In this document: piece after piece, positions 4,145 to 9,387 of the stretch | How the letters are laid out: every line of letters begins with the position of its first letter | Position numbering within the stretch: position 1 is the first letter of the stretch | NCBI GenBank assembly: GCA_017622635.1 | Contig: JAGAQS010000089.1 | Span: 1-11,708, forward strand | Direction: 5' to 3' | Source of the DNA: Ruminococcus sp. | GTDB taxonomy: Bacteria > Bacillota > Clostridia > Oscillospirales > Ruminococcaceae | Length of the DNA: 11,708 nucleotides | The notes under the pieces: generated by a model | What the model saw: only the letters and a program-made list of their open reading frames with translations | Told to the model about the DNA's origin: nothing | Database searches by the model: none | Position numbers and translations under genes: made by a program

Positions 4145-5506
4145 TCAGTAATTACCTGAAGTATCTTCCATGAGTTTAAATTCTATATCATAATATGTTA
4201 TTTTTCCGTTTTTGTCAACGTTTGCACACTTTGCAGTTACTTTGTCACCTGCACCGTATTTACTGCTTATAGCGTCATAGAGTTCGTCATAGGTTTTAAC
4301 GGGTGTACCGTCAATTTCCGTAATGAAATCACCTGCTTTGAGGTCTGTGTTTGCAATGTCGCAGTCCTCGCTTACAGAGTCTATATAAACGCCCTCAAAA
4401 CCGTCGGGGAGTTCATATCCGAGAGCCTGTTCTATAAGTATAAGTTTTTCGGGGGAGTCCATGTCAATAAGTGTTATTCCTATTCTGAAACGTCCCGAAA
4501 CATATCCGTTGTCTATAAGTTCTTCAATAACGGGCATAGCGTCGTTTATTGTTATTGCAAAACCGAGACCCTCAAAACTTGAACTTACATATTTTGATGA
4601 TGTTATTCCGATAACCTGACCGTACATATTAACCAATGCACCGCCTGAATTTCCGGGGCTTATATCGGCGTTTGTCTGTATGCAGTTCATTTCAAAACCC
4701 GTTGTGTCACTGCGGATTTTACGGTTTACTGCCGAAATGATACCGTCTGTAACGGTGTTTGAAAGTCCTGCGGGGTTTCCGACCGCTATTACCTGTTCAC
4801 CTACAATTGCCTCGTCGGAGTTTCCGAAAAGTGCAGGTACAAGTTTAGTACCGTTTACTTTTATAACGGCGATATCTGTCTTTGAGTCTCTGCCTATGAT
4901 TTCGGCATTGTATTCTTTGCCGTCGGTGGTATGGATTGTGTGATAGCCGTCAGCCTGAAGAACGTGTGCATTTGTCACAATATAGCCGTCCTCTGAAATT
5001 ACAACACCTGAACCCGTTCCCGAAAGGGTGGTGTGTGCAGAATTGCTGTATGTGTAAATTTCAACGATAGAATCCTTTACAGCAGCCGCAGCACCTTCAA
5101 TAGTGTATCTGCCGTTTTCGTCAACGAAATTGCTGAGGTCGTTTGCACCTTCGGGTTTTTTATTCTGATAAAGTACGACGTGCTGTGAAGTTTTAAGCTG
5201 TTCAATAAAGCCGTTGCTTCTGTATATATCGTTTGCTATTCCGTACACGGCAAGTGCGGCGGCAAGCAGGATAATCATGACAAACAGGAATATAATGAAC
5301 TTTTCACCGCCTGTACTTTTTCTTGTACGTATATTTTCGGGAGGGTCGGGGAAAACAGGGTCATTTTCTTCAAAGTAAGACGGTTCGTACTCATCATAAG
5401 CAGGCATTTTTTCCTGATTATAATATTCCTGTTCATTTTTTTCGTGTTTCGGAATATAGGAGTTGTTCTGTTCCGAATCGTTTCGGGAAGTGTAATTTTC
5501 GTCCAT
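4145..5506 (-). CDS. htrA: Membrane-anchored HtrA/DegP-family serine protease
   Basis: HtrA proteases degrade or refold misfolded exported proteins on the outer face of the membrane. The 453-residue product has an acidic, Tyr/Asn-rich cytoplasmic N-terminus (1-66), one membrane helix (about 69-90), a trypsin-like protease domain (about 135-335) and one PDZ domain (about 340-445). The triad is visible: H181 in VTNAHVLQ, D211 in SKTDIAVIKV and S287 in DISPGNSGGALVN, with AVGNPAGL upstream as expected. The PDZ carries DLKAGDFITEIDG (388-400). ATG at 5506 has AAAGGAG 5 nt upstream. The gene follows the kinase by 24 nt, so the two are co-transcribed; this parallels CssRS control of htrA genes in Bacillus, suggesting a secretion-stress response (inference). 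It ends at the terminator at 4056-4099. Confidence 0.95.
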   Translation of the reverse strand: MDENYTSRNDSEQNNSYIPKHEKNEQEYYNQEKMPAYDEYEPSYFEENDPVFPDPPENIRTRKSTGGEKFIIFLFVMIILLAAALAVYGIANDIYRSNGFIEQLKTSQHVVLYQNKKPEGANDLSNFVDENGRYTIEGAAAAVKDSIVEIYTYSNSAHTTLSGTGSGVVISEDGYIVTNAHVLQADGYHTIHTTDGKEYNAEIIGRDSKTDIAVIKVNGTKLVPALFGNSDEAIVGEQVIAVGNPAGLSNTVTDGIISAVNRKIRSDTTGFEMNCIQTNADISPGNSGGALVNMYGQVIGITSSKYVSSSFEGLGFAITINDAMPVIEELIDNGYVSGRFRIGITLIDMDSPEKLILIEQALGYELPDGFEGVYIDSVSEDCDIANTDLKAGDFITEIDGTPVKTYDELYDAISSKYGAGDKVTAKCANVDKNGKITYYDIEFKLMEDTSGNY

Positions 5507-5530: not shown

Positions 5531-6961
5531 TTACAGGCTGTTTTGTTTTTCGGGTACTTGTATCTGAAATTCCGTATATTCCCCGTATACGCTTTTTACG
5601 ACTATATGACCGTTGTTTATACGTAATATTCTTCTTGAAATGGAAAGACCCAGACCGAGACCCGTTGTGTCTTTTCCTCTTGACGAATCCGTTTTGTAGA
5701 AGCGGTCAAATACCTGTGGTATTTCAGAATCTTTCAGACCGTCGCCCGTATTTTTTATACCTACTATGCACATATCATTTTCCTTTTCAAATCTGAAAGA
5801 AATTTTTCCGCCCTCATTTACGAACTTTACGGCGTTTTCTATAAGGTTGTATACAACCTGTTGCATAAGGTCAGGGTCAACGACGGCAACAAGTCTTTCG
5901 CTGTCAAGTTCTTCAATTTCAATATGTTTTGCTTCAATCTTCTTTTCAAACATGAAAACAGTTTTTATAACGAGGTCTGTGAGATTTGTCTCTTTGAAAT
6001 TCGGTGTCAGTGTACCTGATTCAAAACGGCTCATATTAAGCATTGAACTTATAAGTATTTTCAGACGCTGTATTTCGTTGGAAACAAGGATAAGATATTC
6101 ATTGCGTCTGTTTTTTGGGATAGTGCCGTCAAGTATTCCGTCCACGAATCCGCCTATTGTTGTAATGGGTGTACGCAGTTCATGTGAAACGTTTGCAATA
6201 AATGTCTTGCTTGTTTCCTCGCTTTTTTCTACGTTTGAGGCAAGAGTATTTATATATTTGACTGTTTCGCCGTAAAAACCTGCCGTATCGGTTTTTATTT
6301 TTTCGGAGAAGTCACCCTGTGAATATTTTTTTATTATTCTTATCATGTCATCTGTATATGAAGTATATTTCCTTACTCTTTTTTTCATGACTATATATGC
6401 GGAAATTATAATTAATATTGAAATCAGTGAATAGACAAGAAATATCTCCATTGTAAACATACTTATGTTATATGTACTTCCGTAAATCAGCGAATACATT
6501 TTACGGGAGGGCATATTTTTATATTTTACAAGAAACTGACTCCCATATAAAAGATAAGGTTCGTCTTTTGAGATACCTTCGGAATCAAAATCAAGATATT
6601 CTTTTTTGTCGATATGTGTTTTTATACTGTCCTGAATGGGTATATTGTTTTTGTTTTCTGAATCTGCCGAAAATATACATTTTCCGTTTTCGTCGTAAAT
6701 GTATATCATCAGGTTATGCTGTTCCATGAATATTCCGTGAAATTTTTTAGCAGATTCAGTGTCTGTACTGCCTGTACTGTTGTATTCTTCTTTCATACAG
6801 CTTATGAAAAGATTTCCGACTGTTTTCAGCTTTTCAAGTTCGGTACGTTTGTAAATCGAAGAAGTCAGGCTTATAATTACAACACCGATTAGAATAATAA
6901 TGGATATTATCATCAGCATGGAAAAATGGAACAGTCTGTTATATGAATTTTTGCTGTCCAA
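5531..6961 (-). CDS. Membrane sensor histidine kinase
   Basis: This is the sensor of a two-component system, phosphorylating the OmpR-type regulator encoded upstream. The 476 residues show membrane helix 1 (about 14-34), an extracytoplasmic sensor region (about 37-165), helix 2 (about 169-192), a HAMP-like linker (about 193-245), the dimerisation/phosphoacceptor domain with H260 in FIANVSHELRTPITT, and an ATPase domain with N box YNLIENAVKF (371-380), G1 NTGDGL (404-409), F box FDRFYK (418-423) and G2 TGLGLGLS (433-440). All catalytic motifs are present. The start is TTG at 6961, supported by AGGGGTGAT just upstream; the first Met, at codon 15, would cut into helix 1. That binding site is in the right arm of a perfect hairpin. 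The sensor domain has no family I can name. The kinase is 493 nt from its regulator, unusual for such pairs, and 24 nt ahead of htrA. Confidence 0.95.
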   Translation of the reverse strand: MDSKNSYNRLFHFSMLMIISIIILIGVVIISLTSSIYKRTELEKLKTVGNLFISCMKEEYNSTGSTDTESAKKFHGIFMEQHNLMIYIYDENGKCIFSADSENKNNIPIQDSIKTHIDKKEYLDFDSEGISKDEPYLLYGSQFLVKYKNMPSRKMYSLIYGSTYNISMFTMEIFLVYSLISILIIISAYIVMKKRVRKYTSYTDDMIRIIKKYSQGDFSEKIKTDTAGFYGETVKYINTLASNVEKSEETSKTFIANVSHELRTPITTIGGFVDGILDGTIPKNRRNEYLILVSNEIQRLKILISSMLNMSRFESGTLTPNFKETNLTDLVIKTVFMFEKKIEAKHIEIEELDSERLVAVVDPDLMQQVVYNLIENAVKFVNEGGKISFRFEKENDMCIVGIKNTGDGLKDSEIPQVFDRFYKTDSSRGKDTTGLGLGLSISRRILRINNGHIVVKSVYGEYTEFQIQVPEKQNSL

Positions 6962-6970
6962 CAGAAATCA

Positions 6971-6992
6971 CCCCTGTTTAATAAAACAGGGG
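6971..6992 (-). promoter_or_regulatory. Hairpin occluding the kinase ribosome binding site
   Basis: On the minus strand, CCCCTGTTT (6992-6984) pairs perfectly with AAACAGGGG (6979-6971) around a 4-nt loop. The closing GGGG continues into TGAT, forming the AGGGGTGAT ribosome binding site before the TTG start at 6961. No T run follows, so it is not a terminator; it looks like a translation gate at the end of the structured leader. Opening by heat, a ligand or ribosomes is possible but unproven. Confidence 0.65.
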
Positions 6993-7308
6993 ACAGTCAA
7001 CGACTCCTACTTCGTTCATAAGAAGTGGGAGCTTGTCATAATCCGGTAGTGCAGACGACTTTAAATCTCCTACCTCTTTAGAATACTATAGAGCAGACTG
7101 ACATAACATTATGGGACAGCTGACAATGCCCCTTGTACACAAGATATACTCGCATACAACTGTAAGCGGTACTGATACTTCCCAGCCTTACAGTAAAATT
7201 TTTGTTGTTACGCTTAAGATTTTACATACTGTACGGTTAAACAGTAAAACCTGATATCTTAACTTGTCAAGTTTCCTGTGAGTGCCTTTGACGCAACGGT
7301 TTTCTCAC
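6972..7308 (-). ncRNA. Large structured RNA between response regulator and kinase
   Basis: About 340 nt have no credible reading frame but several nested pairings (minus-strand RNA). A closing helix GTTGCG/CGTAAC (7297-7292 with 7212-7207, one G-U) encloses TCAA/TTGA (7291-7288 with 7270-7267) and TTAAGAT/ATCTTAA (7262-7256 with 7220-7214), forming a three-way junction. The second arm contains a further stem, ACTGT/ACAGT (7245-7241 with 7232-7228). Then follow CTGTAAG/CTTACAG (7193-7187 with 7166-7160), GGTAG/CTACC (7074-7070 with 7049-7045), a near-perfect 10-bp stem (7031-7022 with 7013-7004) and the hairpin at 6992-6971. A promoter places the 5' end near 7308, about 11 nt before the first helix. 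It may be the 5' leader of the kinase-htrA mRNA, an independent RNA, or an omega-RNA/HEARO-type RNA of an IS200/IS605-related element. I cannot settle the family by eye. Confidence 0.6.
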
Positions 7309-7344
7309 CATTTTATATTAACATAATTTTTGTGTTTATGTCAA
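6996..7344 (-). mobile_element. Candidate IS200/IS605-derived miniature element without transposase
   Basis: On the minus strand, TTGAC occurs at 7344-7340 and again at 7000-6996, right after a strong hairpin (7031-7004, stem of ten with one mismatch). IS200/IS605 elements insert 3' of a short target such as TTGAT or TTAC, have subterminal hairpins and end in a related sequence, so a unit of 344 bp from 7339 to 6996 would fit. A weak hairpin ACATAA/TTATGT lies at the left border (7341-7336 with 7326-7321). A third TTGAC at 7270-7266 makes the left boundary uncertain. No TnpA, TnpB or IscB coding remnant is visible. The insertion would explain the unusual gap between regulator and kinase. Confidence 0.35.
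7315..7344 (-). promoter_or_regulatory. Promoter of the structured RNA / kinase-htrA unit
   Basis: On the minus strand, TTGACA (7344-7339) and TAATAT (7320-7315) are 18 nt apart with TG one base upstream of the -10 (extended -10). RNA should start near 7308. It gives the kinase and htrA a promoter separate from that of the response regulator. Confidence 0.65.
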
Positions 7345-7352
7345 GTAATTTC

Positions 7353-7412
7353 AAAAAACAAAAGGAGGCAACGGCATTCCTCCCCGACCTGATATGTCGG
7401 ATAGGAATGCCG
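7353..7412 (-). terminator. Long hairpin with competing terminator stem after the response regulator
   Basis: On the minus strand, CGGCATTCCT (7412-7403) pairs with AGGAATGCCG (7381-7372), and an inner CCGAC/GTCGG (7400-7396 with 7388-7384) extends it. The long stem is 8 nt from the T tract, too far for a standard terminator. A second stem, GGAGG (7383-7379) with CCTCC (7368-7364), lies directly before TTTTGTTTTTT (7363-7353), as in an intrinsic terminator. The two stems share 7379-7381, so they compete. The site may end the regulator transcript or act as an attenuator upstream of the kinase. Confidence 0.55.
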
Positions 7413-7454
7413 CAAATTTGATGAAGTCCCCGTTTGATTTTATACTTTCGGAAA

Positions 7455-8162
7455 TTATTCATCTTCCTCAACTTTAAATTTATATCCTACTCCCCATACT
7501 GTTTCAAGAGACCATTTGTCAGAAACGTTGGCGAGTTTTTCACGCAGTCTTTTTATGTGAACGTCAATTGTACGTGAATCACCGTAATACTCAAATCCCC
7601 ATACTTCATCAAGAAGCTGGTCACGGGTATAAACTCTGTTGGGATTTGAAGTAAGGTAATAGAGGAGTTCAAGTTCTTTCGGCGGTGTATCAATACTTTT
7701 ACCGTTTACTTTAAGTTCATAGCGTGTCATATTTACCGAAAGCTTATCATAGCGTACTTCCTTTATTTCGGGTTCGGGGTTTGAACTGCCGACACGTCTT
7801 GTAACCGCATTTATACGTGCGATTACTTCCTTTGCGTCAAACGGTTTTACAATATAGTCGTCAGCACCGAGGTCAAGACCTATAATTTTGTCAATAGTTT
7901 CGCCCTTTGCGGTAATCATGATAATCGGTACATTTGATTTTTTTCTTATTTCACGGCATACCTGCCAGCCGTCCATGCTGGGAAGCATAATATCAAGCAG
8001 GACGATATCAGGTTTTAATGCATTGAATTTTACAACGGCTTCCGCTCCGTCATGAGAAAGAATCACACCGTATCCGTCTTTTTCAAGGTAAAGCCTGAGC
8101 AGGTCACATATATTTTTATCATCATCTACAATAAGAACTTTCAGACTTTTTTCGTTTGCCAT
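7455..8162 (-). CDS. OmpR/PhoB-family response regulator
   Basis: The 235-residue cytoplasmic transcription factor should be phosphorylated by the kinase encoded downstream. The receiver domain (about 7-120) shows the acidic pair D13/D14 in VLIVDDDKN, phospho-acceptor D57 in DIVLLDIMLP, T84 in IMITAK and K106 in DDYIVKPFDA, all the canonical switch residues. A linker leads to a winged-helix DNA-binding domain (about 136-232) with PPKELELLYYL, DQLLDEVWGF, SRTIDVHIKRLREKL and TVWGVGYKF. ATG at 8162 has GAGGG 9 nt upstream. It has a consensus promoter of its own and is followed by a hairpin/terminator, so transcription of the kinase may be partly uncoupled from it. Likely targets are htrA and its own operon (inference from context). 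Confidence 0.95.
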   Translation of the reverse strand: MANEKSLKVLIVDDDKNICDLLRLYLEKDGYGVILSHDGAEAVVKFNALKPDIVLLDIMLPSMDGWQVCREIRKKSNVPIIMITAKGETIDKIIGLDLGADDYIVKPFDAKEVIARINAVTRRVGSSNPEPEIKEVRYDKLSVNMTRYELKVNGKSIDTPPKELELLYYLTSNPNRVYTRDQLLDEVWGFEYYGDSRTIDVHIKRLREKLANVSDKWSLETVWGVGYKFKVEEDE

Positions 8163-8457: not shown

Positions 8458-9387
8458 ATGAATTTTGTCGGAGAAAAATGTGTTTTCTGCGGAGAAGTCT
8501 TTAAGGACGGGGACGACGTTGTTGTTTGTCCAGAATGTGGTTCGCCTCATCACAGAGAGTGCTATAAAAAAGAAAACAGATGTGCAAATATTGCATTGCA
8601 CTGAACAGGTGAAAAGTGGAAAAGTACCGTAACCGAAGAAAAAACGGAAACAACGGATAATAAAGAATGTCCCGTTTGTAAGTTTCCTAACAATCCGTCG
8701 GACGCAGAAAAATGTGTGATATGCGGTGCAGGTCTGAACGACAATGAAAGTCATAAAAGTGAAGCAACCCACGGTGAAGGTATATATGTAAACCACAGTA
8801 CAGGGTTCAACCCCGAAGAAGATATGGGAGGGGCTACTCTCAGGGAAATATCTATGTTTGTAAATACAAATACTTTTTATTATATACCTGTTTTTAAGAG
8901 AATGAAAGACATAGGTTCAAAGATTTCGTTTAATTTTTCATGTTTTATATTTCCGTCATTTTATTTTGCAAACAGAAAAATGTGGCTGTGGGCAATAATT
9001 TACGCTTTTGTCAGTGTACTTTTTAATCTTCCCGCTTCGGTCATGATTATGGCGGAAAGCGGAGTATTTACGGAAAATATGCTTAATTTCATATACGAAA
9101 ATCAGGGTGTTATTGAAACACTTCAGTCAATATGCGGGTGGGGTTCATGGCTTACAAGACTTCTGCTCTGTCTTTTTGCAAACTGGATTTATTTTAAGTT
9201 TGCACTGAAAAACCTGAAACGTATAAAAATGCACAGCAGAAATGAAAGCCTTAATCTCAACATTGTTGCGGCGGTAGGCGGAGTAAAGCCGTTGAATATT
9301 ATTATAATTACACTTATTACTCTGTCGTTTTCTCTTATTTCAATGGTCGGAATAACAATGTTTCTGAACGTAATGGCGGTCGCCTGA
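8458..9387 (+). pseudogene. RING-finger / DUF2628-like membrane protein gene with in-frame TGA
   Basis: The frame runs from ATG 8458 (GGAGG 7 nt upstream) to TGA 9385 and is broken only by TGA at 8602-8604, codon 49. Before it is a RING-like zinc domain: C8, C11, C24, C27, H31/H32, C35, C42. After it, in the same frame, come a second zinc ribbon (C71-x2-C74, C86-x2-C89) and a membrane part with a DUF2628-like segment SFNFSCFIFPSFYFANRKMW (about 157-176), then hydrophobic stretches to the C-terminus. Reading codon 49 as sense gives a continuous 309-residue protein of the kind found in Ruminococcus-type Clostridia. The TGA could be a single-base nonsense mutation, for example from GGA, or a recoded or leaky stop; I see no SECIS-like hairpin. 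No good ribosome binding site precedes a restart. Function is unknown. The strong promoter and intact remainder suggest a recent event. Confidence 0.75.

Follow-up and report, generated by a model that had tools for sequence, protein, structure and literature searches.

TnpB, the ancestor of Cas12, uses guide RNAs that usually come from the tnpB transcript itself, the flank past the right end of the element becoming the guide, and 'peel, paste and copy' is a model for TnpB-assisted maintenance of such elements. Stand-alone omega RNAs encoded apart from their nuclease, as is the RNA analyzed here, were reportedly described by Altae-Tran et al. in 2021, for IscB rather than TnpB. Among the closest described systems are the omega RNAs (reRNAs) of IS200/IS605 and IS607 TnpBs, which, as far as the available text of the sources goes (PMC8612924, PMC11061315), likewise have a scaffold near the right end with the flank as guide, insertion next to a transposon-adjacent motif (TAM) and homology to tnpB 3′ ends, whereas the present RNA is predicted to arise as a separate transcript from its own promoter; its element lacks tnpB, and a module, here called M, lies near its 5′ end. 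The palindrome-associated transposable element (PATE) of IS605 in Halanaerobium hydrogeniformans is, like ours, a short element reduced to its ends and devoid of tnpA; it combines a left end (LE) and a right end (RE) with the final 58 nt of tnpB, and differs in that it is a single copy for which the available part of the source mentions neither a promoter nor a 5′ RNA module (PMC7290912).

The window, i.e. the whole stretch of 11,708 nucleotides analyzed here, comes from Ruminococcus sp. and carries a structured region between the genes of a response regulator and a histidine kinase (Table 1). A preliminary description had proposed a gene-free structured RNA of about 340 nt at 6972–7308 with its own extended −10 promoter, which might control the kinase-htrA mRNA as its leader (riboswitch or thermometer type) or be of mobile origin. 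The absence of a gene, the structure and the promoter were all borne out: no open reading frame of at least 60 amino acids overlaps 6972–7308; the minus strand from 7310 to 6966 folds with −101.8 kcal/mol versus −81.6 ± 4.7 kcal/mol for shuffles (z = −4.33, none of 100 shuffles as good); and the promoter at 7344–7315, with TG ahead of the −10 hexamer, is the best among eight promoter-like matches in 6900–7500, scoring 10 of 12, with a mean of 2.0 such matches in shuffles of the same region.

A search of 60 relatives gave two loci with the same regulator–kinase pair, L008 in genome G003 and L018 in genome G002, and in both the genes are separated only by a short gap that lacks the RNA element. 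Compared with L008, the window has exactly 425 extra bases, located after TTCAT and showing no target duplication, with the boundary falling between ..GACTTCAT and TGTCCCC... The suggestion of a mobile origin was right, as this is an exact insertion with transposon ends, and the initial observation holds, but the actual element is larger than 340 nt, extending over the left-end hairpin. The idea of a kinase-htrA leader is not supported, the RNA being absent from both relatives; a riboswitch or thermometer was rejected given an empty locus in these relatives, homologues at other loci and no credible Rfam match. Nothing in the window exceeded a gathering threshold of Rfam 15, and with E values up to 5 allowed, 6900–7460 gave four weak matches (E 0.18–3.4) of 14.5–16.2 bits against cut-offs of 60–100. 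A group I intron or IStron, considered in view of known motifs, was discarded, as no supporting element was seen. Two structural details survived in part. The 9-bp hairpin over the kinase ribosome binding site (RBS) exists, but it is host sequence outside the RNA element, because both insertion-free relatives carry it; the GTTGCG/CGTAAC helix of a proposed three-way junction can form in the window, but by eye its conservation in relatives is partial.

Table 1. Positions of the element, its parts and the neighboring genes in the window
Feature	Position	Strand	Basis or remark
htrA-like protease gene	4145–5506	−	
Histidine kinase gene, downstream of the insertion	5531–6961	−	HisKA, HATPase_c (Pfam)
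Host hairpin over the kinase RBS, outside the element	6971–6992	−	also in L008 and L018, both without the insertion
Predicted 20-nt guide, host flank TGTCCCCTGTTTTATTAAAC	6976–6995	−	20/20 match in G003 empty site
Entire insert, 425 bp, IS200/IS605-type without tnpA and tnpB (PATE/MITE-like)	6996–7420	−	junctions versus G003 empty site
Type A TnpB guide-RNA (omega RNA) scaffold, to GTTGAC	6996–7185	−	alignment A3 with L149, L004, L145
Right-end hairpin CTCCCACTTC..GAAGTAGGAG	7004–7031	−	aligns with right ends of other A3 rows
Module M, P1 around hairpin P2, possible H-type pseudoknot	7214–7262	−	alignment A2; models R1, R2
5′ hairpin GTGAG/CTCAC	7278–7308	−	GTGAGAAAACCGTTAC..AAGGCACTCA found again in other type A copies
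Sigma-70 promoter TTGACA-18-TAATAT, TG before −10	7315–7344	−	predicted start ~7308
Left-end hairpin (GGCATTCCT..AGGAATGCC)	7373–7411	−	homologous left ends in L002, L024, L037, L048, L110, L113, L149
TTCAT, TAM/target site	7421–7425	−	
OmpR-type response regulator gene, upstream of the insertion	7455–8162	−	Response_reg, Trans_reg_C (Pfam)

Within the element, the left-end hairpin is followed by the promoter, the 5′ hairpin, M (~50 nt), the omega-RNA scaffold and the right end, and the promoter points to the kinase gene. The left-end hairpin received no terminator call in a terminator scan. The element is present as a single copy in its own genome and shares subterminal hairpins at both ends (LE and RE) with the tnpB-carrying element L149. 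TTCAT lies directly before the left end in all seven same-genus copies of the window's scaffold type (type A) with a readable left end, namely the window copy, L002, L024, L037, L048 (a remnant without scaffold), L110 and L113; the remaining type A copies have a left end that is either unreadable (contig ends, decay) or of another kind (G465, G336). The same motif precedes the left end of L149 and, by eye, that of the tnpB element L004. Elements with a second scaffold type (type B) have TTTAT in front in 13 of 13 cases, of which nine were identified by pattern and the other four by eye. The decayed type A copies L003 and L011 lie ~1 kb apart on one contig (G002:C35), among genes that by eye encode sugar ABC transporter permeases.

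The 3′ part of the element is similar to tnpB genes of relatives over their 3′ end and 3′ untranslated region. Identity of the scaffold is 75% over 155 nt to the tnpB 3′ end of L149 (G142) and 72% over 154 nt to that of L004 (G026), which is a TnpB gene by Pfam (Cas12f1-like_TNB, OrfB_IS605); the tnpB 3′ end of L145 is linked to the window scaffold through homologues in G465 and G336. Nine tnpB-less scaffolds and these three tnpB-linked ones were aligned (A3), leaving out L110, despite its computed coordinates, and L003, L112 and L123, which have no readable right end. In the consensus fold, 96.8% of paired cells are formed versus 84.6% in shuffled alignments (0 of 500 as good) and 39–49% in slid controls. 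Both-sided changes affect 21 of 37 pairs and 69 cells (23.5 cells in shuffles), each count reached by 0 of 500 shuffles, while further pair types are no more numerous than in shuffles (45 versus 44.4; 248 of 500). Compensatory changes, whose absence from homologous loci had been named beforehand as grounds for abandoning the structured RNA, are thus abundant, both in the scaffold and in M (see below). Since the scaffold is homologous to that of tnpB elements and left ends and TTCAT are common to both, the window element can be classified by sequence as a PATE-like element of the IS200/IS605 type that lacks tnpA and tnpB and has an omega RNA.

The first 20 bases of the window's flank match the empty site of G003 at 20 of 20 positions. 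There, TTCAT stands immediately ahead of them, whereas the window has TTGAC, and no TTCAT, in that place. The G002 site has two mismatches to the guide and lacks TTCAT. Such a guide/TAM arrangement is the one predicted for the cutting of empty sites and the sparing of the occupied site. The predicted guide overlaps the self-complementary host hairpin over the kinase RBS, which could hamper the guide if the transcript runs on.

The genome of the window, whose assembly is ~69% complete, yielded neither a type A TnpB nor a match to the Y1 transposase TnpA (PF01797), so that the window copy may now lack a partner protein. The sole TnpB found there, L021 (G000:C271), is closest (83%) to L137, a TnpB linked to another scaffold type (type D), and is only 24–26% identical to the type A proteins L004 and L145, in a comparison that did not include L149; the guide RNA of L021 is unreadable because the gene sits at a contig end. 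PF01797 was matched in two of six genomes searched, G142 and G465, and not in G026, G014 or G123, all of which have M copies. G142 contains both tnpB and M elements of type A.

Module M was first picked up through blastn matches to M alone at other places, and the models R1 and R2 followed. Its fold consists of the helix P1 (UUAAGAU/AUCUUAA) and the hairpin P2, and in the window GGUU can pair with AACC of the P2 loop; across copies, this possible contact between the P2 loop and bases upstream takes the form GGUU/AAYC. The alignment A2 contains 36 distinct M sequences, L032 and L035 having been added by hand. Paired cells amount to 92.7% versus 84.3% in shuffles, with slid controls at 26–51%, and both-sided changes occur in 9 of 18 pairs and 56 cells (15.8 cells in shuffles; 0 of 500 for each). 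All nine of these pairs belong to P1 and P2, and the loop pairing shows no both-sided change in A2. Distant copies outside these counts, e.g. GAGGTT..AACCTC and GGGTT..AATCCC, agree by eye with the loop pairing. The outermost pair of P2 is unformed in 20 of the 36 sequences. M itself has no match in Rfam; the possibility that it is a known small ribozyme was dismissed, as a comparison of M-bearing loci with Rfam gave no ribozyme match.

Including the window's own genome in each case, M was found in 14 of 125 genomes of the genus, 3 of 394 in a sample of the order and 7 of 398 in a sample of the phylum, with three copies in G787 and eleven in G879; in the family of G465 it occurs in 2 of 87 genomes. 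Genome searches over 40 genomes used stricter filters and give lower bounds. Named matches to M comprise 38 stretches from Ruminococcus, Oscillospiraceae and Clostridia MAGs. A blastn search of plasmids and phages returned no match, and two exact patterns gave 0 hits in viral contigs.

What follows M was classified for 40 non-redundant copies from the genus, G465 and G336 (41 rows, with L053 double-listed, and without one G026 copy on contig C19). Type A scaffolds follow in 13 cases, type B in 12 plus L034 (B-like by eye), type D in 5 and a CRISPR repeat (type C) in 9. Type B scaffolds match the tnpB loci L133, L146 and L140, and type D scaffolds match L144, L131, L152, L148 and others. RAGATH-18 (RF03064, cut-off 44.9 bits) was recognized behind M at 75.5 bits in L022 and 73.6 bits in L086, the two of five type D loci that were compared with Rfam; a second match in L086, of 69.4 bits, does not belong to the copy behind the M that was found. 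According to the available text of PMC11061315, RAGATH-18 is the guide RNA of IS607 TnpBs, and 64% of RAGATH-18 RNAs adjoin TnpB. The type D loci L022 and L023 have by eye near-matching inverted stretches at both ends, ending in ..GCGG, and by the same inspection look like IS607-like elements with an M-capped RAGATH-18 and no tnpB.

In the phylum and family samples, a scaffold is recognizable by eye behind M in 13 of the 15 loci inspected, the two others being L166, which is cut short, and L168. Scaffolds of G787 and G858 match tnpB 3′ ends, while those of G879, G861, G600 and G708 have no tnpB partner among 61 tnpB loci. The G879 scaffold (L164) resembles sot0042 (RF02656), with 41.2 bits under the curated gathering cut-off of 88; the Rfam name stands for sense overlapping transcript, whereas the G879 RNA stands alone. 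M precedes several unrelated guide scaffolds, including two IS605 types, RAGATH-18/IS607 and other Firmicutes types. At L168 (G708), a convincing M (E = 3.6e-5) lies before a gene that by eye resembles acetate/butyrate kinase.

The type C units are confined here to one genome, G026, where nine units of ~162 bp consist of a promoter, M and a CRISPR repeat (loci L013, L015, L017, L019, L020, L046 and L049), and the flank occupies the position of the spacer. By its look, the repeat presumably resembles that of type I-C systems, and it is identical to the repeat of an array with cas1 on contig C40 of the same genome. M was not found near this array in the two loci examined; M as the leader of the normal G026 array was dropped as an explanation, as M was not found in the leader that was read. 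Only one unit has two repeats: at L020:1401–1625 on the minus strand, repeat, spacer and repeat stand behind M as a miniature array located off the cas1 contig. The neighborhoods of three units were inspected, and each of these units is situated within or next to phage genes (portal, methyltransferase/terminase, transposition protein); other units adjoin, by eye, non-phage genes. In RNA anti-CRISPRs (Racrs), solitary repeats are often preceded by promoters, as far as the available text of PMC10651486 describes them. The type C units are similar to these in having a promoter and, with the exception just described, a single repeat, as well as in the phage context of three units, but differ in that M is placed between promoter and repeat and in that they come from one genome here. 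They are candidate RNA anti-CRISPRs with a 5′ module.

As far as seen, M appears to be a feature of stand-alone guides. Model R2 with E values up to 1 gave no match in 61 tnpB loci, i.e. those of 95 TnpB matches for which the locus sequence was examined, and the notion that M is a part of tnpB elements was rejected on this result; the narrower model R1 gave only two weak matches in 31 tnpB loci (E 0.31 and 0.97). As a positive control, R2 gave 10 copies in seven of nine loci, which says little because most of these sequences had gone into building the model, but R2 recovered unseen M copies in other genomes. In 37 of 49 copies, the 130 nt ahead of M include a promoter with a score of 10–12 of 12, versus ~4% of shuffles, with three copies too near contig ends left out. 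For type B, 11 of 12 copies have 8–10 nt between the end of the −10 hexamer and the aligned M segment, and five of the six G879 copies examined have 11 nt there, which places M right at the start of the predicted RNA. Types A, C and D show a spacing of ~30–65 nt where a promoter was found, and in the window a hairpin comes first.

Given the observed insertion and its junctions, the homology and covariation of the scaffold, the ends and TTCAT common with a tnpB element and the 20/20 guide match, we consider it probable (roughly 80%) that this is a protein-less IS200/IS605 element located 3′ of TTCAT, i.e. a self-contained guide-RNA gene that depends on TnpB in trans and has M as a 5′ cap. In this reading, a non-autonomous element of this family integrated 3′ of TTCAT, in the gap separating the regulator gene from the kinase gene, bearing in place of tnpB a promoter, the 5′ hairpin, M and a type A omega-RNA scaffold, and host DNA beside its right end would be transcribed as the guide. 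Judging from homology and the guide/TAM configuration, TnpB supplied in trans would load this RNA and may cut the empty site left by excision or present on the sister chromosome, and repair would then keep or copy the element, favoring its retention. The position and distribution of M suggest that it probably stabilizes guide RNAs transcribed apart from the effector, shielding them from 5′ end-dependent decay until they are bound, as they would have neither the tnpB mRNA nor protection by TnpB at birth. As for the neighboring genes, the kinase now lies downstream of the guide-RNA promoter and may have lost its coupling to the regulator gene.

The element could be a dead relic, an old tnpB element with its coding part deleted and its RNA no longer used, as the assembly of the window's genome yielded no matching TnpB or TnpA, the element is single-copy and decayed copies exist elsewhere (L003, L011 and L048). 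A simple deletion, however, would add neither a promoter nor M; the scaffold pairing is kept, with both-sided changes, and promoter, M and scaffold are retained in many copies elsewhere, which makes this account unlikely. Co-option of the insertion as a regulator of kinase-htrA, e.g. through a kinase promoter or TnpB processing near the RBS, would fit the direction of the promoter and the overlap of the guide with the RBS hairpin. We regard it as very improbable, as the gene pair exists without the insertion in two relatives, homologues occupy other loci and nothing suggests selection at this site.

M-capped guides could be decoys that load TnpB, or Cascade in the case of type C, non-productively and inhibit it in the manner of RNA anti-CRISPRs; the G026 units, with the phage context of three of them, their likeness to Racrs and an array of the same repeat with cas1 on one contig, in two loci of which no M was found, speak for this, but in types A and B the transposon ends and the insertion next to a TAM are retained, which fits elements whose guide serves maintenance, so that we find a decoy function improbable. 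M might instead be an antitermination or RNA-polymerase-binding element of the boxA or put kind rather than a stability cap. It is promoter-proximal, and the G336 copies have CTCTTTGAAAAG or TTCTTTGAAAAG at its 5′ edge, which we take to be close to the boxA consensus; the boxA-like letters vary by eye across copies, however, and no terminators are shown downstream of M, leaving this reading equally doubtful. We see about even odds that M is a so far undescribed RNA domain dedicated to guides acting in trans, a pseudoknot at their 5′ end that was repeatedly joined to unrelated scaffolds (several TnpB types and solitary CRISPR repeats) and would let them work, or interfere, apart from the effector gene.

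The literature, searched mostly at the abstract level, offered no account of M or of any 5′ domain shared by omega RNAs that lack tnpB, which is weak evidence of novelty. The elements described here keep only the guide and would depend on a protein from elsewhere; they share a 5′ RNA domain that was missing from the examined tnpB loci. If M stabilizes or licenses trans-acting guides, it would explain the persistence of protein-less elements, help to find further examples and supply guide-RNA engineering with a natural 5′ part. As it also stands before solitary CRISPR repeats, M connects the guide RNAs of transposons with putative RNA anti-CRISPRs. Should the dedicated-domain reading be true, Firmicutes would contain a class of mobile, protein-less guide-RNA genes, of which the window element is one.

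Apart from the element, the plus strand at 8458–8604 and onward contains a gene that by eye resembles that of a zinc-ribbon/RING-type protein, with an in-frame stop codon (TGA, 8602–8604); both L008 and L018 read through at this position, and their copies of the gene are intact there.
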